The position numbers and the translations under genes were made by a program. A stretch of DNA of 64,000 nucleotides, taken from the NCBI RefSeq assembly GCF_001561995.1, contig NZ_LLWC01000009.1, positions 124,001 through 188,000 on the forward strand, given 5' to 3'. Under the pieces are notes generated by a model, which saw only the letters and a program-made list of their open reading frames with translations, had not been told where the DNA came from and ran no database searches. The first letter of the stretch is position 1. Each line of letters begins with the position of its first letter. This stretch comes from Polycladidibacter hongkongensis. Its GTDB lineage: Bacteria; Pseudomonadota; Alphaproteobacteria; Rhizobiales; Stappiaceae. Of this stretch, positions 12,344 through 21,401 are shown piece by piece.

Positions 12344-12994
12344 TTAGTGCGTCGTGGTGCCCAACGGTTCACGTGGCGCCGCTGCTTGCAGGACCTCTTC
12401 CTGCTGTAATCGCTCGACGATCCCGCAAATAAGCGGTAGGTCACTGCGTTCTGCGCTCCATCGGTCTGCATTGTAGATCTGCGGCAACAGCACAATATCC
12501 GCTAAGCCAATCCTGTCTTTAAAACAAAAGCGCCCCGGCTTGCCGCGTTCGAGCAGCTTTTCAAAGGCGCAGAGGCCGCGGCGAATATGGCGCTGCATCC
12601 ATGCCTTCTTTGCTTCATCGCCTGCATCGCTTAGCAGAGCTATTTCCTTCACGATGCTTAAGTTACAAACCGGGTGGATATCAACGGCCAGGGCATGCGC
12701 AAGGGCGCGCACCTGTGCCCGTTCAAGAAAGTCTTCAGGCAAGAGGGCCGGCGTGGGAAACCGCTCCTCAAGATAATCAATAATCGCCAGAGATTGGGTG
12801 AGTTCCACCCCTTCAATCTCCATAACTGGCACAAAAGCTTGCGGATTGCGCTGTAGATGCGGCGCTGCTTTATGTGCGCCCACCAGCAGATTTACCGGAT
12901 GCGTCCTATACTCCAGCCCTTTAACGGCAAGCGCAAGCCGAACGCGGTAGCTGGCAGAGGAGCGCCAGTAATCGTAAAGTGTGATCCCGCTCAT
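12344..12994 (-). CDS. maiA: Maleylacetoacetate isomerase (zeta-class GST)
   Basis: Glutathione-dependent isomerase that converts maleylacetoacetate to fumarylacetoacetate, the step before FahA in tyrosine/homogentisate breakdown. The 216-residue protein has the zeta-class signature SSASYRVRLAL (about 12-22), with the catalytic Ser in the glutathione site, and NPQAFVPVMEIEG, TQSLAIIDYLEE. A strong GGGGGAGGA ribosome-binding site lies just before the ATG. It is 39 bp downstream of the marR gene and probably cotranscribed with it, divergent from the fahA operon. Confidence 0.93.
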   Translation of the reverse strand: MSGITLYDYWRSSASYRVRLALAVKGLEYRTHPVNLLVGAHKAAPHLQRNPQAFVPVMEIEGVELTQSLAIIDYLEERFPTPALLPEDFLERAQVRALAHALAVDIHPVCNLSIVKEIALLSDAGDEAKKAWMQRHIRRGLCAFEKLLERGKPGRFCFKDRIGLADIVLLPQIYNADRWSAERSDLPLICGIVERLQQEEVLQAAAPREPLGTTTH

Positions 12995-13033
12995 TATCCT
13001 CCCCCATGGGTTGCAGCAAGCGCCCGCACCTAA

Positions 13034-13516
13034 TTAGGTGTCCTGGGTCTCAGCCTCTTGACTGCGCAACTCTCCTTGCAAGGCAAAAGCTTGTGCCTGC
13101 ACCTTTTGCATTAGCTGTGCCAATTGTGCGCGTTCGCCCTTTTCAAGTGGCTCCAGCAGCTTTTTTTCCACTTCGCGAACCAGAGGGATGAGCGAAGCAA
13201 ACACAGCTTGCCCGTCTTCGGTTAATCGCAATACGGATTTGCGACGGTCATCCCCATCGATATCCCGTTTGAGATATCCGATCTTGCGAAGGCTCTGAAC
13301 AGCGCGGCTAACACTGACTTTGTCCATACTCGACCGGGCAACAATCTCGCTAGCAGACAAAGCCTGATGACTGCCCAAGATTGCCATGGTGCGCCACTCA
13401 CTCACGCTAAGTCCGTATTTCGCGCCATAAACCTGCGCGATGGTTTCACTGATGACAGTTGAAAACACCCGCACCTGATAGGGAAAAAAACCGGCAAGAT
13501 TGAAAGCTTCGCTCAT
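13034..13516 (-). CDS. MarR-family regulator of the aromatic locus
   Basis: Winged-helix repressor of about 160 residues. The recognition region is visible (LSASEIVARSSMDKVSVSRA, then a wing with RDIDGDDRRKSVLRLTEDG). The start is uncertain: ATG at 13516 or 13540, with only weak ribosome-binding sites; a TTG at 13564 seems too far upstream. It is transcribed with maiA and away from fahA. A nearly perfect palindrome (13593-13605) lies in the divergent promoter region and is a good candidate for its operator. The effector is probably an aromatic intermediate of the pathway, by analogy with other MarR regulators in such loci. Confidence 0.9.
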   Translation of the reverse strand: MSEAFNLAGFFPYQVRVFSTVISETIAQVYGAKYGLSVSEWRTMAILGSHQALSASEIVARSSMDKVSVSRAVQSLRKIGYLKRDIDGDDRRKSVLRLTEDGQAVFASLIPLVREVEKKLLEPLEKGERAQLAQLMQKVQAQAFALQGELRSQEAETQDT

Positions 13517-13592
13517 TCTTTTTCTGTCTGTTAGCGCCATTTGTGGCCCGTTGATACCGTGCAATGTACTTATGCATACTTATATTGTGCCA

Positions 13593-13605
13593 TTGATAGT
13601 ATCAA
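13593..13605. promoter_or_regulatory. Candidate MarR operator palindrome
   Basis: TTGATAGTATCAA has perfect 6-bp arms around a central G, 77 bp upstream of the marR start, between marR-maiA and fahA. A second partial copy, tagtatc, recurs at 13695-13701, nearer fahA. The spacing (3 nt between TTGAT and ATCAA) is one short of an FNR box, so I favour MarR. Confidence 0.5.
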
Positions 13606-13853
13606 GTGAAACTAAAAGTCAATTTATCATTTTCTCAAAATTCAATATGATAAACATAATATAAACAATGATTTAAGGATACGTTGAACTAAAGTAGTAT
13701 CGAAAAAACTGCAAAATGATCGCGCAAGTAATTGACAAAGTTACATATGAAACTAATTTTATGGCGTGAACGACAACGTGAATTTGCGCTCGCATATATT
13801 CATGAGTTCCACGCCACCAACACACGTCCTGACAACCTTATTTTAGGTGAGAT

Positions 13854-15143
13854 ATGCAAAGCTGGGTTCTCTCCGCCAACGAAGCGGATAGCCATTTCCC
13901 AATTCAGAACCTTCCCTATGGCGTTTTTGCGCGTAAAGGGGAGGAACCACGCTGCGGCGTCGCCCTTGGTTCGTGCATTATTGATCTGGCATTTCTGGAA
14001 GCTGAAGGTCTCGTGCAAGCCGCCGATGAGCCGGTATTCAATCAGCCGCAGCTCAATGCCTTCATGTCTCTAGGCGCAGCGGCATGGGATAATGTGCGCT
14101 CTAGCTTGCAAGAGCTGTTCCGTGAAAACGGCAACCCAGTGCTAAGAGAAAGTTCAACTCACTGCGAGCGTGCGCTTGTGCCGATGGCTGAGGCACAGCT
14201 TTTCCTACCCTTCCAAGTGGCTGAGTACACTGATTTCTACGCCGGAAAACAGCACGCCATGAATATTGGCAGCATTTTGCGCGGGCCGGAAAATGCACTG
14301 CCGCCCAACTGGCTGCATATCCCGATCGGCTATAACGGCCGCGCTTCTACGGTTGTCGCTTCTGGGCATGATGTGCGTCGGCCACTAGGTCAAGTCAAGG
14401 CACCAACGGCAGAAGTGCCATCGTTCAAGCCATGCGCCCGCCTTGATATGGAATTGGAGATGGGCGCTGTTGTTGCAACGCCAAGCCGCATGGGCGAGCC
14501 TATCAGCGTCCAGCAGGCGGATGACATGATCTTCGGGTATGTGCTGCTCAACGATTGGTCCGCCCGAGATATTCAGGGGTGGGAATACCAGCCGCTGGGG
14601 CCGTTTCAGGCAAAGGCGTTTGCTACCACTATCAGCCCTTGGGTAGTCACCAAAGCGGCCCTTGAAGAGTTTCGCTGCGCAACACCTCCGCGCGAAAAGG
14701 AGCTGCTGCCCTACCTCCACGAACCCGGCCCAATGCTCTACGATATCGAGCTGGAGGCCTATTTACAGCCCGAAGGCGCTGCATCACCCACCCGCATCAC
14801 CCGAACCAACTACAACCGCATGTATTATTCGGCCGCCCAGCAGTTGGCGCATCACGCCATTGGCGGCTGCAAGATGAACACAGGCGATCTGCTAGGCTCC
14901 GGCACAATCTCCGGCGCTGAAAAGAGCGAGTTCGGTTCGCTTATGGAGCTGACATGGGGTGGTAAGGAGCCTCTGCAATTAGCCGATGCTACGTCGCGCA
15001 TTTTCCTTGAGGATGGCGACACGGTCACTCTGACCGGCTGGGCACAGGGCAATGGCTACCGCATCGGCTTTGGTTCCTGCTCAGGCACAATCACACCAGC
15101 CCCGGCTCATGCGCCGGTTAGTAAATTAACGCAAGAGGCCTAA
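13854..15143 (+). CDS. fahA: Fumarylacetoacetase
   Basis: Hydrolyses fumarylacetoacetate to fumarate and acetoacetate, the final step of homogentisate-type aromatic catabolism. The 429-residue length fits the long, eukaryote-like FAH class and not the short fumarylpyruvate hydrolases. Recognisable stretches are YTDFYAGKQHAMNIG, RLDMELEMGAVV, the metal-site region NDWSARDIQGWEYQPLGPF, and GDLLGSGTISG. AGGTGAG lies upstream of the ATG. It leads a plus-strand operon in which the next gene starts 3 bp after its stop. With maiA across the promoter it supplies the two terminal steps. Confidence 0.95.
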   Translation: MQSWVLSANEADSHFPIQNLPYGVFARKGEEPRCGVALGSCIIDLAFLEAEGLVQAADEPVFNQPQLNAFMSLGAAAWDNVRSSLQELFRENGNPVLRESSTHCERALVPMAEAQLFLPFQVAEYTDFYAGKQHAMNIGSILRGPENALPPNWLHIPIGYNGRASTVVASGHDVRRPLGQVKAPTAEVPSFKPCARLDMELEMGAVVATPSRMGEPISVQQADDMIFGYVLLNDWSARDIQGWEYQPLGPFQAKAFATTISPWVVTKAALEEFRCATPPREKELLPYLHEPGPMLYDIELEAYLQPEGAASPTRITRTNYNRMYYSAAQQLAHHAIGGCKMNTGDLLGSGTISGAEKSEFGSLMELTWGGKEPLQLADATSRIFLEDGDTVTLTGWAQGNGYRIGFGSCSGTITPAPAHAPVSKLTQEA

Positions 15144-15146
15144 ACA

Positions 15147-16097
15147 ATGGCAAAAACTTTCGCATCCGCTGGCGATCTGACCGAGAAGAAAATCTCCTTC
15201 ACCGAAGTCGGCCGCGATCTCTACGCCTTCACAGCCGAAGGAGATCCTAATTCCGGTGTGATTATCGGCGATGACAGCGTCATGATCATCGAAGCGCAAG
15301 CCACCCCGAAGCTGGCGAACAAGGTGATTGAATGCGTCCGTTCCGTCACCGATAAGCCCATCAGCCATGTGGTGCTCACGCACTACCACGCGGTGCGTGT
15401 GTTAGGCGCCTCAGCATTTGGGTCGCCGCAAATCATTATGGGAGAAAAGGCCCGCTCTATGGTTGCCGAGCGCGGTAAGGAAGACTGGGCCAGCGAGTTC
15501 GAGCGCTTCCCGCGCTTGTTTGAGGGCCATGAGAGCATCCCGGGATTGACGTGGCCAACAACCACATTCAACGACAGGATGACAGTTTACCTTGGCAATC
15601 GTCGCGTTGATCTCATGCATCTTGGGCGCGCACATACCGCAGGAGACATTGTCGCCTACGTGCCAGATGAAAACGTGATGTACACTGGCGATATAGTCGA
15701 GTATCACTCGGCCTGTTACTGCGGTGATGGCCACTTCCATGATTGGCCAACAACGCTGGAGCGAATCCGCGGGTTTAATCTGGATGCCATAGCCCCAGGG
15801 CGCGGCGATGCGCTTGTTGGGCAGAGCATGGTCAATGCGGCCCTCGATTCTACCAAGGATTTTGTCACCTCAACCTACAAACCCGCCGCCCAAGTGGCTT
15901 TGCGTGGTGGTTCGCTTAAAGAGGCATGGGATGCTGTCCGTGCTGAGTGTGATCCCAAGTTTAAAGACTACGCGATCTACGAGCATTGCCTGCCATTCAA
16001 TGTGGCCAGAGCCTATGACGAGGCCTTGGATATCGATACGCCACGCATTTGGACAGCTGATCGTGATCGCGAGCTTTGGGAGGCCCTGCAGGGCTAG
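15147..16097 (+). CDS. MBL-fold metallo-hydrolase with altered metal motif
   Basis: Metallo-beta-lactamase-fold protein of 316 residues whose reaction is unknown. The fold is clear: SVMIIEAQATPKLANKVI, then LTHYHAVR (79-84), HLGRAHTAGDIVAYV, and MYTGDIVEYH. The canonical HxHxDH motif reads H79-Y-H81-A-V-R84, so the Asp and His of the second metal site are replaced. The gene sits between fahA (3-bp gap) and a FAD monooxygenase whose start lies 39 bp after its stop. That placement suggests hydrolysis of an ester, thioester or lactone intermediate of the same pathway, but this is inference. The C-terminal part (DWPTTLERIRGFNLDAIAPG) is typical of the family. Confidence 0.88.
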   Translation: MAKTFASAGDLTEKKISFTEVGRDLYAFTAEGDPNSGVIIGDDSVMIIEAQATPKLANKVIECVRSVTDKPISHVVLTHYHAVRVLGASAFGSPQIIMGEKARSMVAERGKEDWASEFERFPRLFEGHESIPGLTWPTTTFNDRMTVYLGNRRVDLMHLGRAHTAGDIVAYVPDENVMYTGDIVEYHSACYCGDGHFHDWPTTLERIRGFNLDAIAPGRGDALVGQSMVNAALDSTKDFVTSTYKPAAQVALRGGSLKEAWDAVRAECDPKFKDYAIYEHCLPFNVARAYDEALDIDTPRIWTADRDRELWEALQG

Positions 16098-16135
16098 CGG
16101 ACCTGCAGGAAGGTGGCTGTTGGGAGGCAGCGCAT

Positions 16136-17764
16136 ATGACGCATATATTTGAAATCCCTTTGTACCCCTATGAGCGATCAGTAGATCAGGATAGCGCCGA
16201 GCCAGCACATCATCAGGTGGTTGTTGTCGGAGCGGGGCCAATCGGTCTTGCTACTGCAATTGATCTTGCCCAGCAAGATGTGCCGGTGTTGGTGCTGGAT
16301 GAGAATGACCGCGTTAGCTGGGGCTCGCGCGCCGTGTGCTATGCCAAGCGCCCCTTGGAAATTCTCGATCGCCTTGGCTGCGGTGACAAATTCGTAGAAA
16401 AAGGCGTGCAATGGAATATGGGCAAGGTCTTCTTTGAAGATCGCCAGGTTTATTCCTTCGATCTTCTGCCGGAAGAAGGCCACAAGCGGCCCGCCTTTAT
16501 CAACTTGCAGCAATACTACCTTGAACAATATCTGGTGGAGCGGTTGCGCGATCTGCAGGCGGAAGGCAAACCTATCGAACTGCGCGGCAAAAGCAGGGTT
16601 ACCAAAGTTGCTCAGTCGGGCGAGCGGGTTGATTTAACAGTAGAAACACCGGAAGGTCCCTACACCTTGAGCGCCGATTGGCTCATCCCTTGTGATGGAG
16701 CTGCCTCGCCAATTCGCGCCCTGCTTGGCTTGGATTTCGTTGGCCGGGTGTTCGAGGATAACTTCCTTATTGCAGATGTGGTGATGCAGGCCGACTTCCC
16801 GACAGAACGTTGGTTCTGGTTTGATCCACCCTTTAACAAAGGGCAATCTGCACTGCTGCATAAACAACCCGACAATGTTTGGCGGATTGATCTGCAGCTT
16901 GGTTGGGATATCGACCGAGAGAAGGAAAAACAGCCGGAAAACGTCATTCCCCGGTTGAAGGCCATGCTGGGCGAAGATGTAGACTTCGAGCTCGAGTGGG
17001 TGTCAATCTATACCTTCCAATGTCGCCGCATGGAGAAGTTCCGCCATGGGCGTGTCTTGTTCGCAGGTGATGCCGCTCACCAGGTTTCCCCCTTCGGTGC
17101 CCGCGGCGCAAATTCCGGCCTGCAAGATACTGATAACCTGTGCTGGAAGCTTAAGCTGGTGATAGATGGCAAGGCACCGGCAGCCCTGCTGGATACCTAT
17201 GACGATGAGCGCATTTTGGCTGCGGATGAGAATATTCTCAATTCCTCCCGGGCAACAGACTTTATCACACCAAAATCTGCGATGAGCCGCACTTTCCGTG
17301 ACGCAGTGCTACAGCTTTCTGAGAAAGCTGCGTTTGCACGGCCCTTGGTAAATTCCGGCCGTCTTTCTGTACCAAGCACCTATGATGGCTCACAGCTCAA
17401 TGGTGCCGATTGTGAAAAAATGCCAAGGCGTAGCAGGCCGGGCAGCCCTGCCAGCGATGCTCCGCTAGGAGAGGCTTGGCTGCTTGATCAGTTGGGCAAT
17501 AACTTCCAGCTTCTTGGGATTAATGTTGATCTGCCCGCTTCTATCGAGATTGAGGGCATTTCTGTTGCGAGCCTGTGCCTGACCACCGCAGCTGGCGAGC
17601 AAAGTTTGCTGGCCGAGCGCTACTTGGGGGAGGCGGCGCAGGCAGTCTACCTCATCCGGCCAGATCAGCACATCGCAGCACGCTTTGAAAGCTATAGCGA
17701 GGCTGCAATCACACAGGCCTTGCGCACAGCCATAGGGCAGAGAGTCAAGGAGGTCGCTCAATGA
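16136..17764 (+). CDS. FAD-dependent aromatic monooxygenase
   Basis: Flavoprotein hydroxylase of about 542 residues, related to MhpA and the PheA/TfdB phenol hydroxylases. The N-terminal Rossmann motif is VVVVGAGPIGLATAIDLAQ; the FAD/NAD(P)H-linked DG stretch is WLIPCDGAASPIR; the second FAD motif is RVLFAGDAAHQVSPFGARG. The last 130 residues are the thioredoxin-like C-terminal domain of this family. The ATG at 16136 has GGGAGG 8 bp upstream; frames further upstream overlap the MBL gene. It overlaps the DUF2783 gene by 4 bp. It should add a hydroxyl group to a phenolic ring; the substrate is unknown. Confidence 0.9.
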   Translation: MTHIFEIPLYPYERSVDQDSAEPAHHQVVVVGAGPIGLATAIDLAQQDVPVLVLDENDRVSWGSRAVCYAKRPLEILDRLGCGDKFVEKGVQWNMGKVFFEDRQVYSFDLLPEEGHKRPAFINLQQYYLEQYLVERLRDLQAEGKPIELRGKSRVTKVAQSGERVDLTVETPEGPYTLSADWLIPCDGAASPIRALLGLDFVGRVFEDNFLIADVVMQADFPTERWFWFDPPFNKGQSALLHKQPDNVWRIDLQLGWDIDREKEKQPENVIPRLKAMLGEDVDFELEWVSIYTFQCRRMEKFRHGRVLFAGDAAHQVSPFGARGANSGLQDTDNLCWKLKLVIDGKAPAALLDTYDDERILAADENILNSSRATDFITPKSAMSRTFRDAVLQLSEKAAFARPLVNSGRLSVPSTYDGSQLNGADCEKMPRRSRPGSPASDAPLGEAWLLDQLGNNFQLLGINVDLPASIEIEGISVASLCLTTAAGEQSLLAERYLGEAAQAVYLIRPDQHIAARFESYSEAAITQALRTAIGQRVKEVAQ

Positions 17765-17976
17765 CGATTGCAAGCGCCAAGCTGGAAATCAAGCCAAACA
17801 TTATCGATCCGGATGGCTTCTACAACGAGCTGCTAAACGCACATGAGGGCCTGAGCGAAGCGCAAAGCACCGCTTTGAACGCGCGCCTTGTGCTTATTCT
17901 GGCAAATCATATTGGTGCCCGGGACGTGCTTAGCGAGGCATTTCGTCTAGCCAAAGCTGCTGGCACCCCATCGTGA
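17761..17976 (+). CDS. DUF2783-like small protein
   Basis: A 71-residue soluble protein, overlapping the monooxygenase gene by 4 bp (ATGA). It is predicted to be largely helical (FYNELLNAHEGLSEAQSTAL, then RLVLILANHIGARDVLSEAF). It resembles the DUF2783 family, recalled as a frequent neighbour of this type of monooxygenase. Tight coupling suggests that it works with the flavoprotein, perhaps as a small subunit, but no function is known. Confidence 0.8.
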   Translation: MTIASAKLEIKPNIIDPDGFYNELLNAHEGLSEAQSTALNARLVLILANHIGARDVLSEAFRLAKAAGTPS

Positions 17977-17989
17977 GGAGGACGATGAC

Positions 17990-18532
17990 ATGAAAGTGGA
18001 ACAAATTCACCATGTGGCCTATCGCTGCAAAGACGCAAAAGAAACCGTAGAGTGGTACACGAAGAACCTGAACATGGATTTCATCCTCGCCATCGCTGAG
18101 GACCGTGTACCCTCAACCCATGAACCAGATCCGTATATGCACCTCTTCTTGGATGCGGGACATGGCAATGTACTGGCTTTCTTTGAGCTGCCAACCAAAC
18201 CGGAGATGGGCAAGGACCCCAACACACCAGAATGGGTGCAGCATATCGCTTTTAAAGTGAAAGACCGGGAAACTTTAATAGGCTTTAAGGAAAAGCTGGA
18301 GGGCAATGGCATCGATGTGCTCGGTGTCACCGATCACTCTATTTTCCATAGCATTTATTTCTTCGATCCAAACGGCCATCGTGTCGAGCTTGCTTGCCCG
18401 GATCCGGCAGAAGAGGAAAAACTAAAGCGCCTTGATGCCGTTAAGTGGGAGATGCTGGAAGAATGGAGCCGCACCAAAAAAGCCCCAAAACACGCTGATT
18501 GGTTGCACGCCAAAGAGCTAGGCAAGGCCTGA
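17990..18532 (+). CDS. VOC-family metalloprotein (possible ring-cleavage dioxygenase)
   Basis: A 180-residue vicinal-oxygen-chelate protein with two beta-alpha-beta-beta-beta modules. The positions that bind metal in the fold are filled by acidic or histidine residues: H8 (QIHHVAY), E66 (AFFEL), H85 (WVQHIAF) and E133 (GHRVEL), which could form a 2-His-1-Glu site. The family includes glyoxalases and extradiol dioxygenases. In this operon a ring-opening dioxygenase is missing, so that role is tempting but unproven. GAGGAGG lies upstream of the ATG. The C-terminal 40 residues are a charged helical tail. It is the last gene of the operon and is followed by a 12-bp hairpin. Confidence 0.85.
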   Translation: MKVEQIHHVAYRCKDAKETVEWYTKNLNMDFILAIAEDRVPSTHEPDPYMHLFLDAGHGNVLAFFELPTKPEMGKDPNTPEWVQHIAFKVKDRETLIGFKEKLEGNGIDVLGVTDHSIFHSIYFFDPNGHRVELACPDPAEEEKLKRLDAVKWEMLEEWSRTKKAPKHADWLHAKELGKA

Positions 18533-18774: not shown

Positions 18775-19434
18775 ATGCATAATCAATCGTCAAATACGGC
18801 ACTCGCCTATAAGAAGCTAAAAGTCGCTATCCTCTCTAACGAGATTGCATCCGGCACTCAGATGCTTGAGCGCGAAGCGGCGGAACATTTGGGAATGAGC
18901 CGCACTCCGGTTCGAGAGGCCATGCTCCTGTTGCAGCGCGACGGGCTTGTCCAAGTGCGCGCCCGCCACGGCATGACGGTGTTGCCGATCTCCCAGCAAG
19001 ACTTGAAAGAGCTTTTTGAATTATTTTTCAATCTGGAAACCGTTGCTGTTCGTCAGGCAGCGCTAAACTGGCAAGAATCAGAGCAGCTGGAAGAGCTAAG
19101 CCAAGCAATCAAGCAGATGCAATCGGCCATCGAGCTGCATAATATGCTTTCTTGGACCTTGGCAGATCGCCACTTCCACGAGCATATACCGCAAATCGCG
19201 GGTAACTCTCGAATGCTGCGCATTCTGACAAGTTTGCGCGATCAGAGTCACCGCCTGCATTTGCAGTTTGCCACCGCAATGAGCCGGCCCTTGTACCAGC
19301 CAAAGCAGTTGGAGCAGATCTATTTGGCAATTCGCAACAGAGAAGCCGAACATGCCGCAGAGCTGCACTTGCGCCATCTGCAAGACCAGTTCGAGCTGTT
19401 ATCGCTTTACCTGCAACAGAGCGAGTTTGCTTAG
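18775..19434 (+). CDS. GntR/FadR-family transcriptional regulator
   Basis: A 219-residue regulator with an N-terminal winged helix-turn-helix (about 10-75; MLEREAAEHLGMSRTPVREA, VQVRARHGMTVLPIS) and a C-terminal all-helical FCD ligand domain (about 80-215). FCD ligands are usually carboxylic acids bound with a metal; conserved Asp/His positions are present (DRHFHEHI, AGNSRM). The start has no strong ribosome-binding site. It follows the terminator of the aromatic operon and ends at a hairpin before ubiV, so it is a single-gene unit. It may control the adjacent locus, itself or distant genes. Confidence 0.9.
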   Translation: MHNQSSNTALAYKKLKVAILSNEIASGTQMLEREAAEHLGMSRTPVREAMLLLQRDGLVQVRARHGMTVLPISQQDLKELFELFFNLETVAVRQAALNWQESEQLEELSQAIKQMQSAIELHNMLSWTLADRHFHEHIPQIAGNSRMLRILTSLRDQSHRLHLQFATAMSRPLYQPKQLEQIYLAIRNREAEHAAELHLRHLQDQFELLSLYLQQSEFA

Positions 19435-19458
19435 CAGCCTGCAGCTTAGTTTGTGAAA

Positions 19459-19479
19459 AGGGCGCGTACACCGCGCCCT
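19459..19479. terminator. Convergent hairpin between GntR gene and ubiV
   Basis: Stem agggcgcg (19459-19466) / cgcgccct (19472-19479), 5-nt loop, between two convergent stop codons. T tracts are weak, but the position fits a bidirectional terminator. Confidence 0.6.
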
Positions 19480-19485
19480 CAATCA

Positions 19486-20379
19486 TTAATCAGCCCACAA
19501 ATGGCCCGGCTTGCCGCCCACATAGCCATTCGCTAACGCCCCCGGTAGAGGCAAGCTGCGCAGGCGCGCCTCCAGCTCCTCGCTGTTGATGCGATCAGCC
19601 AGCATCGCCGCGTAATCCTCGCTGACTTTCACCATGTCAATGCTATGGGGTGACAGCCGTAGGCGCCCGACCCCATTGGCCCGAAGCTCATCGGCAGCCA
19701 TAGTCAGCGCTTGGACACTATGGGAAAGAGTTTGAATGCCATTGGCAGCCAGAAATTGCTGGTTGTCCAGCGTGTCCACATCCATGCCATCCAGATCACG
19801 ATCGCAGATAAACTGGCAGCTATCTTTGTGTAGCTTATGCGCCCGCGCATGGTAGCATCGCCCCGAGACCGCAAGCGGTAGACGGCCAAAGGCAAACAAT
19901 TCCGTCGTGATCTGCGGACATGCCTTGGCAATAGTGGCAAGAGAGCTTAGCGGCAACTCCACAGGCGGGCACAGGCTCTCCATGCCGCGGTCAATCAAAG
20001 TTTGCGCCGCGCCCTCGTTATAGACGTTAAAGAATGGCCCAACGGCAAATGGCTTGCCCGCACGCTTGGCAAGCGCGGCCACATCGTTCACCTCGACCAG
20101 CATGTCCATTTCGCACAAATCGGCGATAGAGTTGCGGTCACGCTTGGTCACAGGCAGCGCAATTGTCGAAAGCACCACCTGCTTTCCACCGCGCTCCAAA
20201 CGTTCGATCACTTGCGGCCATGCTTTGTCGTTAAACGGCATGCGCTTCCCGCAGATCACCTCACCGATATAGACACGGCTCACCGGCGCTTCATCAGCAA
20301 CTCGGGCATAAAAATCATGCAGATACTCGGCAGACCAGTTAAAAAAAGACGGGCCGAGGGCAAGTTCTATGGCGCTCAT
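19486..20379 (-). CDS. ubiV: O2-independent ubiquinone biosynthesis protein UbiV
   Basis: U32-family protein that, with UbiU, hydroxylates the ubiquinone ring without oxygen. The 297-residue protein carries four Cys expected to hold a [4Fe-4S] cluster: C43 (GEVICGKR), C175 (SGRCYHARAH), C188 and C192 (DSCQFICDRD). The pattern and spacing match the UbiV described in E. coli. GGAGAT precedes the ATG. It lies 2 bp downstream of ubiU and closes the ubiT-ubiU-ubiV unit, whose promoter region holds an FNR-type box. Earlier annotations call such proteins U32 peptidases; the partners and cysteines argue for UbiV. Confidence 0.93.
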   Translation of the reverse strand: MSAIELALGPSFFNWSAEYLHDFYARVADEAPVSRVYIGEVICGKRMPFNDKAWPQVIERLERGGKQVVLSTIALPVTKRDRNSIADLCEMDMLVEVNDVAALAKRAGKPFAVGPFFNVYNEGAAQTLIDRGMESLCPPVELPLSSLATIAKACPQITTELFAFGRLPLAVSGRCYHARAHKLHKDSCQFICDRDLDGMDVDTLDNQQFLAANGIQTLSHSVQALTMAADELRANGVGRLRLSPHSIDMVKVSEDYAAMLADRINSEELEARLRSLPLPGALANGYVGGKPGHLWAD

Positions 20380-20381
20380 GA

Positions 20382-21401
20382 TTATCTCCAGATCTTTTTA
20401 TAGGCACCGGTGGTCTCGCGCCCACCCTCTGTCATCGCACTCAGCATGGCAGAAACTTCGGCCTCTGCATTGCCGCCGGCATCCAGCACATCCACCGCTT
20501 GCCTGAAGGCTTTAACCACCTGCGATATGTAGGCCTTGCCTCTCTGGCGCCCTTCAATTTTGAGGGCGGTAATCCCGGCCTTCTTCAGCCTTGGTAGGAG
20601 GGCGGCAGCGTTCAGGCTCACTGGGTCTTCAAAGAGATAGGAAGTCTCGTCATTGGCGTTAAACCGCCCCTTGCAAAGGGTTGGGTAACCAGCGCTTTCA
20701 CCAGCGTTAAACCCATCAATAGTAAAGCCGCCCAGCCGGGCAAACAGCTTGTCACCCTCCTCATCGTAGGAAACATCTCCCGGAGGCGAGCAAACCCCAG
20801 TAAGATTAGGGGATTTCCCGGTCGCATAAGATGACAGCGAGCACCGCCCTTCTGTCATCACGCACAGTCCGCCAAACACGAAAACCTCTGTCTCCACGTC
20901 GATCTCGGCATTTAGCTTTTCGATCTCCTCGACCGACATAACCCGCGGCAACACCACACGTTGCACACCAAAGGTTTCAGCATAAAAGTTGATCGCCTCG
21001 GGCGTCGCTGCCGCTGCTTGCACGGATAGGTGCAGCCGGATTTGTGGATGGTGTTTGAGTGCGTAGTCAAGCACGGCCAGATCAGCGGCAATAATCGCAT
21101 CAGCCCCGCAAGCTGCGATATCATCGACAGCTTTTGTCCAGATGCCCACATCACCCGCCCGCGCAAAGGTGTTAACCGCTACCAGCACGTTGGTGCCGCG
21201 TTGATGCGCATAGCGCACCCCCTCTCGCAGTTCGCGCACCGAAAAATTCAAGCCGGGGAAGTTGCGTGCGTTGGTTTCATTGCGAAACCCGCAGTAAACG
21301 GTGTGGGCCCCAGCATCAACGGCAGCTTTTAAGGCAGCAGGCGTTCCTGCGGGGCACACCAGCTCCATTGTTTTCGGGGTATTGGTCATTTGCAAGGACA
21401 T
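20382..21401 (-). CDS. ubiU: O2-independent ubiquinone biosynthesis protein UbiU
   Basis: U32-family partner of UbiV in oxygen-independent hydroxylation of ubiquinone precursors; in E. coli the source of the oxygen atom is prephenate. The 339-residue protein starts with ELVCPAGTPAALKAAVDAGA and has four cluster cysteines at C180 (FGGLCVM), C187 (EGRCSLSS), C204 (TGVCSP) and C243 (PTLCKGRFN). An AGGAAG element precedes the ATG at 21401; a second ATG four codons later is possible. It lies 63 bp downstream of ubiT and is adjacent to ubiV. Confidence 0.94.
   Translation of the reverse strand: MSLQMTNTPKTMELVCPAGTPAALKAAVDAGAHTVYCGFRNETNARNFPGLNFSVRELREGVRYAHQRGTNVLVAVNTFARAGDVGIWTKAVDDIAACGADAIIAADLAVLDYALKHHPQIRLHLSVQAAAATPEAINFYAETFGVQRVVLPRVMSVEEIEKLNAEIDVETEVFVFGGLCVMTEGRCSLSSYATGKSPNLTGVCSPPGDVSYDEEGDKLFARLGGFTIDGFNAGESAGYPTLCKGRFNANDETSYLFEDPVSLNAAALLPRLKKAGITALKIEGRQRGKAYISQVVKAFRQAVDVLDAGGNAEAEVSAMLSAMTEGGRETTGAYKKIWR

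Follow-up and report, generated by a model that had tools for sequence, protein, structure and literature searches.

A single-domain VOC protein as the probable homogentisate dioxygenase of an aromatic-degradation operon in Polycladidibacter hongkongensis

The subject of this study is a set of seven genes in a 64,000-nucleotide stretch of the Polycladidibacter hongkongensis genome (RefSeq assembly GCF_001561995.1, contig NZ_LLWC01000009.1, positions 124,001 to 188,000; hereafter the window), the last of which encodes a small VOC family protein. Two of the genes lie on the minus strand: maiA (12344-12994), whose product matches the maleylacetoacetate isomerase equivalog TIGR01262 with 235.4 bits (cut-off 171), and a gene for a MarR-family regulator (13034-13564; PF12802 and PF01047 above cut-off). 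The plus strand carries fahA (13854-15143), encoding a fumarylacetoacetase (TIGR01266 equivalog, 551.7 bits for a cut-off of 375; PF09298 and PF01557), followed by genes for an MBL-fold hydrolase (15147-16097; PF00753), conserved in the module, for a MhaA-like FAD aromatic hydroxylase (16136-17764; NF006002/PRK08132, 805 bits for a cut-off of 416; PF01494), for a DUF2783 protein of 71 amino acids, MhaB-like by position and size (17761-17976; PF10932, 96.5 bits), and for the VOC protein, a probable homogentisate 1,2-dioxygenase with a single domain of 180 amino acids (17990-18532; PF00903, 58 bits). Because these five genes are spaced by only 3, 38, -4 and 13 bases, the DUF2783 start overlapping the stop of the monooxygenase gene, the run from fahA to the VOC gene fits an operon. 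A first-pass annotation of the window had placed all seven genes at or very near these positions and had noted the tight plus-strand spacing, which is confirmed; it had also described maiA-marR and fahA as facing each other, whereas marR and fahA are in fact divergent, lying back to back.

Textbook accounts of tyrosine breakdown include the cleavage of homogentisate, normally credited to HmgA alone; MaiA and FahA then yield fumarate and acetoacetate. As MaiA and FahA are both recognized at equivalog grade, the substrate reaching this last part of the pathway should be maleylacetoacetate, which homogentisate cleavage produces. The first-pass annotation had found no HmgA in the window, had suggested as an alternative that the operon feeds an HmgA encoded elsewhere, and had proposed a genome search for hmgA and hpd. 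The absence extends to the entire assembly, a draft of 3.74 Mb in 38 contigs with a completeness rating of 100%: searches with PF04209 and TIGR01015 gave no match at E≤0.001, a Caulobacter control being positive in both. HPPD, by contrast with HmgA, is encoded elsewhere in the genome (395.6 bits, cut-off 277), and homogentisate is therefore probably formed from tyrosine too. HmgA was found in 9/9 other genomes of the family and in 9 of the 16 examined from the genus; since it was not found in the other 7, this one included, its absence looks like a feature of the lineage rather than a private assembly gap, the draft state of the assembly notwithstanding. The suggestion of an HmgA elsewhere in the genome was rejected on the negative PF04209 and TIGR01015 searches and on the pattern across the genus. 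Synteny did not locate a site of hmgA loss: the hmgA region of Pseudovibrio japonicus (L195) and the window extended by 140 kb on each side have no gene order in common, and their sole match is one protein with 34% identity.

The VOC protein matches neither TIGR01015 nor PF04209, the HmgA families. Its closest solved relative is PDB entry 9u42 (E 1.2e-82 over residues 3-178, same length), released on 2025-07-23 with the title "Crystal Structure of Homogentisate 1,2-Dioxygenase from Acinetobacter in Complex with Zn ion" and the molecule name "Glyoxalase". The two proteins are 71% identical in the Foldseek alignment, and the aligned sequence of 9u42 has the same set of conserved His, Glu and Tyr residues. 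Among 154 aligned VOC rows, H8 and H85 are conserved in all 154 and E133, Y123 and H116 in 153 each (one gap each), whereas residue 66 is Glu in 142 and Asp in 12. H8, H85 and E133 are candidate metal ligands, forming a putative 2-His-1-Glu site as in type I extradiol dioxygenases, and H116 and Y123 would be second-shell residues of the extradiol signature. The first-pass annotation had counted E66 among the candidate ligands together with H8, H85 and E133; the latter three are retained, with E66 as a less certain candidate. In the alignment with catechol 2,3-dioxygenase 1mpy, His116, Tyr123 and Glu133 correspond to positions 246, 255 and 265, which we take to be the second-shell His, the second-shell Tyr and the ligand Glu. 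The extradiol His/Tyr/Glu signature, a PROSITE-like pattern, is carried by 141/141 distinct VOC proteins at least 55% identical and by 11/14 of those below 55%. Scanning 6449 mechanically listed open reading frames of at least 100 amino acids in the collected loci returned 174 matches, of which 172 were VOC copies and the remaining two one and the same HPPD-VOC fusion.

A tree of the VOC copies was computed with a quick method, and its reading is limited by the lack of bootstrap, by 67/151 weak inner branches, by crude context labels and by long-branch warnings for the outer rows. A 98-row clade (SH-aLRT 100) holds the window copy (L099) and the Acinetobacter copies L002 and L006, uniting copies found next to the monooxygenase, copies found next to HPPD and those of Acinetobacter. 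Such a common clade would argue for, without proving, one common reaction in both contexts. Two diverged VOC proteins (L136 and L137, from genomes G409 and G515), 40-42% identical, retain the signature and come from genomes with HPPD and without HmgA; they may represent a further branch of the same role.

We then compared the occurrence of VOC, HmgA and HPPD across 289 genomes from the class to which the window belongs and 276 from that of Colwellia chukchiensis. VOC scores were bimodal (at least 233 bits, then at most 183), and presence was set at 230 bits or more; HmgA was counted as present at any match with E≤0.001, unless a stricter threshold of more than 280 bits is stated. When both classes were combined, HPPD-encoding genomes had the VOC protein in 22/29 cases without an HmgA match and in 4/110 cases with one. 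The contrast was 15/18 versus 4/79 in the window's class (Fisher p 1.8e-11) and 7/11 versus 0/31 in the Colwellia chukchiensis class (p 1.2e-5), p values that are too optimistic as the sampled genomes are related. Among the genomes lacking HPPD, the VOC protein occurred in 2/192 and 1/234 in the two classes, respectively.

The first-pass annotation had also proposed a comparison of gene neighbourhoods, and this comparison recovered orthologues lying beside hppD and fahA without hmgA in the DNA fetched. The genome scan confirmed 590 stretches; among the 80 best of these loci, many of them incomplete, fah was present in 43, mai in 37, the monooxygenase with DUF2783 in 50, MBL in 46, hmgA in 28 and hppD in 18, with hppD but not hmgA in 13. 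In whole-genome searches the VOC gene lay within 300 bases of the HPPD gene in G029, G105, G125, G153, G191, G220 and G288, and also in G333, G466 and G552. The plasmid collection yielded a fahA-maiA-VOC cluster with hppD close by in A. baumannii, the order hppD-VOC-fahA in Ideonella and the order MBL-monooxygenase-DUF2783-VOC-fahA in Sphaerotilus; an Acinetobacter plasmid groups a monooxygenase gene with fahA, maiA and VOC, and a conjugative Enterobacter plasmid carries VOC with maiA and a second type of FAA hydrolase. None of the 10 VOC loci of this collection showed hmgA within the DNA fetched. A single 561-amino-acid frame in a Rhodoferax metagenome-assembled genome (L079:8855-10540) fuses HPPD (residues 7-356) to VOC (383-560); as no second fusion occurs in the 89 genomes searched from this genus, it may be a single event or an assembly error. 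Other loci carry both ring-cleavage genes: the full order hmgA-fah-MBL-monooxygenase-DUF2783-VOC-mai is found in 12/80, mostly in Roseobacters. We also observed hmgA directly after the VOC gene in L016, L018 and L054, and in its place after DUF2783 in L089. Across these four loci, hmgA and VOC behave as if they were interchangeable parts.

Upstream of ring cleavage, the FAD monooxygenase and the DUF2783 protein resemble MhaAB. PMC3053370 describes MhaAB of Burkholderia xenovorans LB400 as a flavoprotein and a 60-amino-acid coupling protein that convert 3-hydroxyphenylacetate to homogentisate (3-hydroxyphenylacetate 6-hydroxylase) and adjoin hmgABC, and it gives mhaA, mhaB and hmgA consecutive locus numbers. 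Rhodoferax ferrireducens (L089) likewise has the order monooxygenase-DUF2783-hmgA, while a VOC gene sits by hppD and fah. Compared with LB400 and L089, the VOC gene of the window takes the slot of hmgA after the monooxygenase and DUF2783. The monooxygenase and DUF2783 genes occurring together in 50 of the 80 loci share their strand with VOC in all 50; a second VOC gene follows the pair in 15 of another 18 loci from the genus Rhodoferax. In L169 (4172-16191) an MBL-monooxygenase-DUF2783-VOC-FAA hydrolase module lies directly ahead of paaN, G, H, I and K, a position that would fit a hydroxyphenylacetate substrate; this module also lies next to an open reading frame joining Hemerythrin and ABC ATPase domains. 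By analogy and from its context, the window monooxygenase is a probable hydroxyphenylacetate hydroxylase yielding homogentisate. For the MBL hydrolase, present in 46/80 related loci, the closest solved chain is 8d2z (E 7.5e-113), which has no named function, and a structure search with the DUF2783 protein returned only proteins with design-like names.

Taken together, these results make it likely that the operon is a homogentisate-pathway unit in which the VOC protein performs ring cleavage in place of the cupin HmgA. The pair formed by the FAD monooxygenase and DUF2783 would convert 3- or 2-hydroxyphenylacetate to homogentisate; the VOC protein, acting as a single-domain extradiol-type metalloenzyme, would add O2 and open the homogentisate ring to give maleylacetoacetate, which MaiA and FahA would process. 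The same VOC protein would also clear the tyrosine-derived homogentisate made by HPPD. The MBL hydrolase may free the aromatic acid by hydrolysing an ester or a lactone, although this is a guess. The scheme of the first-pass annotation, in which the monooxygenase makes a dihydroxy-aromatic compound, the VOC protein opens its ring and MaiA and FahA finish the pathway, is thus the best-supported reading of the sequences, given 9u42, the signature and the orthologues beside hppD and fahA. The 71%-identical 9u42, the signature and the gene context point to homogentisate 1,2-dioxygenase as the most likely activity of the VOC protein. The earlier description of an operon with no known ring-cleavage enzyme was too strong, as the PDB already lists such a VOC protein under the name of homogentisate dioxygenase; what adds interest is the wide spread of this kind of enzyme, its complementary distribution and the existence of operons that encode the two ring cleavers together. 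More tentatively, and with the balance still tilted against it, VOC homogentisate dioxygenases might form a second widespread class, of a fold unrelated to HmgA, which has repeatedly replaced HmgA, as in the genome studied here, is also spread by conjugative plasmids and in one lineage is fused to HPPD, and whose product may, in hppD-VOC-fah loci that have no maiA nearby, feed fumarylacetoacetase directly.

Several observations weigh against a homogentisate dioxygenase role for the VOC protein. The function of 9u42 is given by the title that its depositors chose, and full-text searches of the open-licence part of PubMed Central for a VOC homogentisate dioxygenase, DUF2783 or 9u42 showed, among the papers listed, none on the enzyme. 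The AlphaFold model of the VOC protein (pLDDT 80.5) matches 9u42 locally (Foldseek E 1.3e-23), yet the overall superposition is poor (TM-score 0.46-0.49, root-mean-square deviation 17 Å), perhaps because VOC subunits swap halves, which is a guess. Scores stay far below the curated extradiol cut-offs (TIGR03211 catechol_2_3, 34.8 bits for 320; TIGR02295 HpaD, 25.4 for 321), and E66 falls at what we take to be the position of the fourth ligand of glyoxalase I. When only HmgA matches above 280 bits are counted, the contrast drops to 16/67 versus 3/30 in the window's class (p 0.17) and is 7/20 versus 0/22 in the Colwellia chukchiensis class (p 0.003). This dependence on threshold is due to divergent HmgA-like proteins of about 385 amino acids (65-100 bits to TIGR01015) that often adjoin HPPD; this family may itself consist of homogentisate dioxygenases, perhaps of another class. 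Moreover, 7 of the 29 HPPD-encoding genomes without HmgA also lack VOC: G092 (whose HPPD is under the curated cut-off), G198, G207, G372 and G406 have none, and G409 and G515 have only the diverged VOC proteins (161 and 152 bits). Among 30 genomes selected from those that supplied the 80 loci with close VOC copies, HmgA was above cut-off in 26, weak in 1 and not found in 3, and hmgA lies inside 28 of these 80 loci. Where both occur, the VOC protein would be a second ring cleaver or act on another compound. A strict one-for-one replacement of HmgA by VOC is weakened by this co-occurrence in many relatives, often in one operon.

The coexistence of the two genes in these loci and genomes favours a different substrate: the VOC protein could mainly cleave a hydroquinone or catechol of related structure that the monooxygenase produces, HmgA taking homogentisate where both exist. 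That the monooxygenase, DUF2783 and VOC genes stay together as a core, in the scanned loci, in those of Rhodoferax and among the paa genes of L169, would agree with this, as would the window's own alphaproteobacterial subgroup of the tree (62 rows, SH-aLRT 87), which contains no HPPD-context copy. We nevertheless consider this explanation unlikely, as 9u42 was deposited as a homogentisate dioxygenase, the VOC gene adjoins that of HPPD, the producer of homogentisate, in many genomes, MaiA and FahA of equivalog grade are its neighbours in the window, and copies from both contexts and from Acinetobacter share the clade with full SH-aLRT. An isomerase or glyoxalase-type activity, e.g. a glutathione-free maleylacetoacetate isomerase with the ring opened by an unrecognized dioxygenase encoded elsewhere, would account for the Glyoxalase-like Pfam domain, for E66 at the position of a glyoxalase I ligand and for the 6 loci without maiA in the fetched DNA among 10 loci having hppD and fah but no hmgA. 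We regard it as highly improbable: VOC and MaiA occur together, with no HmgA found, in the window and in the Acinetobacter cluster, and both the extradiol signature and the 9u42 title speak for ring cleavage. All curated NCBIfam glyoxalase and Fos models scored below their cut-offs (the best, FosF, 35.7 bits for 280; YaeR-type, 35.3 for 140; glyox_I, 19.5 for 120), and a glyoxalase or Fos-type function was rejected as the principal interpretation on this basis. Finally, an HmgA fed by the operon could have been missed through an assembly gap or unrecognized divergence. The 38-contig draft and the presence of HmgA in 9/16 genomes of the genus and in all others of the family leave some room for this; however, HmgA was not found in 7/16 genomes of the genus, the assembly is rated complete, and the model picks up remote HmgA-like proteins of 65-100 bits in other genomes but none here, so that there is very little chance that this explanation is right.

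Regulation of the locus can be addressed from the divergent intergenic region (13565-13853), a candidate operator and promoter region with an imperfect palindrome at 13562-13587. MarR probably controls both divergent arms; its top NCBIfam match is BilQ, with 58 bits, under the BilQ cut-off of 125. A short palindrome seen by eye at 13593-13605 (TTGATA G TATCAA) partly recurs in Pseudovibrio japonicus and is a possible MarR operator; the marR-fahA gap is too poorly conserved between the window and P. japonicus to define an operator site. Next after the VOC gene lies a GntR gene (18775-19434), whose product scores under the phnR_burk cut-off. After it, within 18775-21401, two minus-strand genes resemble, by eye, a U32-peptidase-type UbiU/UbiV pair.

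If VOC proteins cleave homogentisate in many bacteria, genomes now read as having broken tyrosine or hydroxyphenylacetate pathways would in fact be complete, and a gene called only "VOC family protein" in the plasmid records examined would gain a precise function. Two unrelated folds would then catalyse one and the same reaction, at times from neighbouring genes of a single operon, which opens the question of why a cell retains both ring cleavers.

The proposed enzyme can be set against four known systems. The relatives of 9u42 in Acinetobacter belong to a fahA-maiA-VOC cluster beside hppD, or lie near another FAD monooxygenase (35% identity), whereas the window VOC gene is placed after MBL-monooxygenase-DUF2783 with HPPD encoded elsewhere. 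The HmgA cupin (TIGR01015/PF04209) would catalyse the same step of the pathway but belongs to a different sequence family and, presumably, to a different fold. The VOC fold is common to the window protein and to the type I extradiol dioxygenases 1mpy, BphC (1kmy; E 4.7e-7) and LapB (3hpy; E 3.5e-7); these we take to be two-domain proteins of about 300 amino acids acting on catechols, whereas the window protein has one 180-amino-acid domain and an additional conserved acidic residue, E66. With MhaAB, the likeness is one of order and size: a large FAD protein, then a protein of about 60-70 amino acids, directly before the ring-cleavage gene. In the window, however, the gene that follows the small partner is VOC and not hmgA as in LB400.

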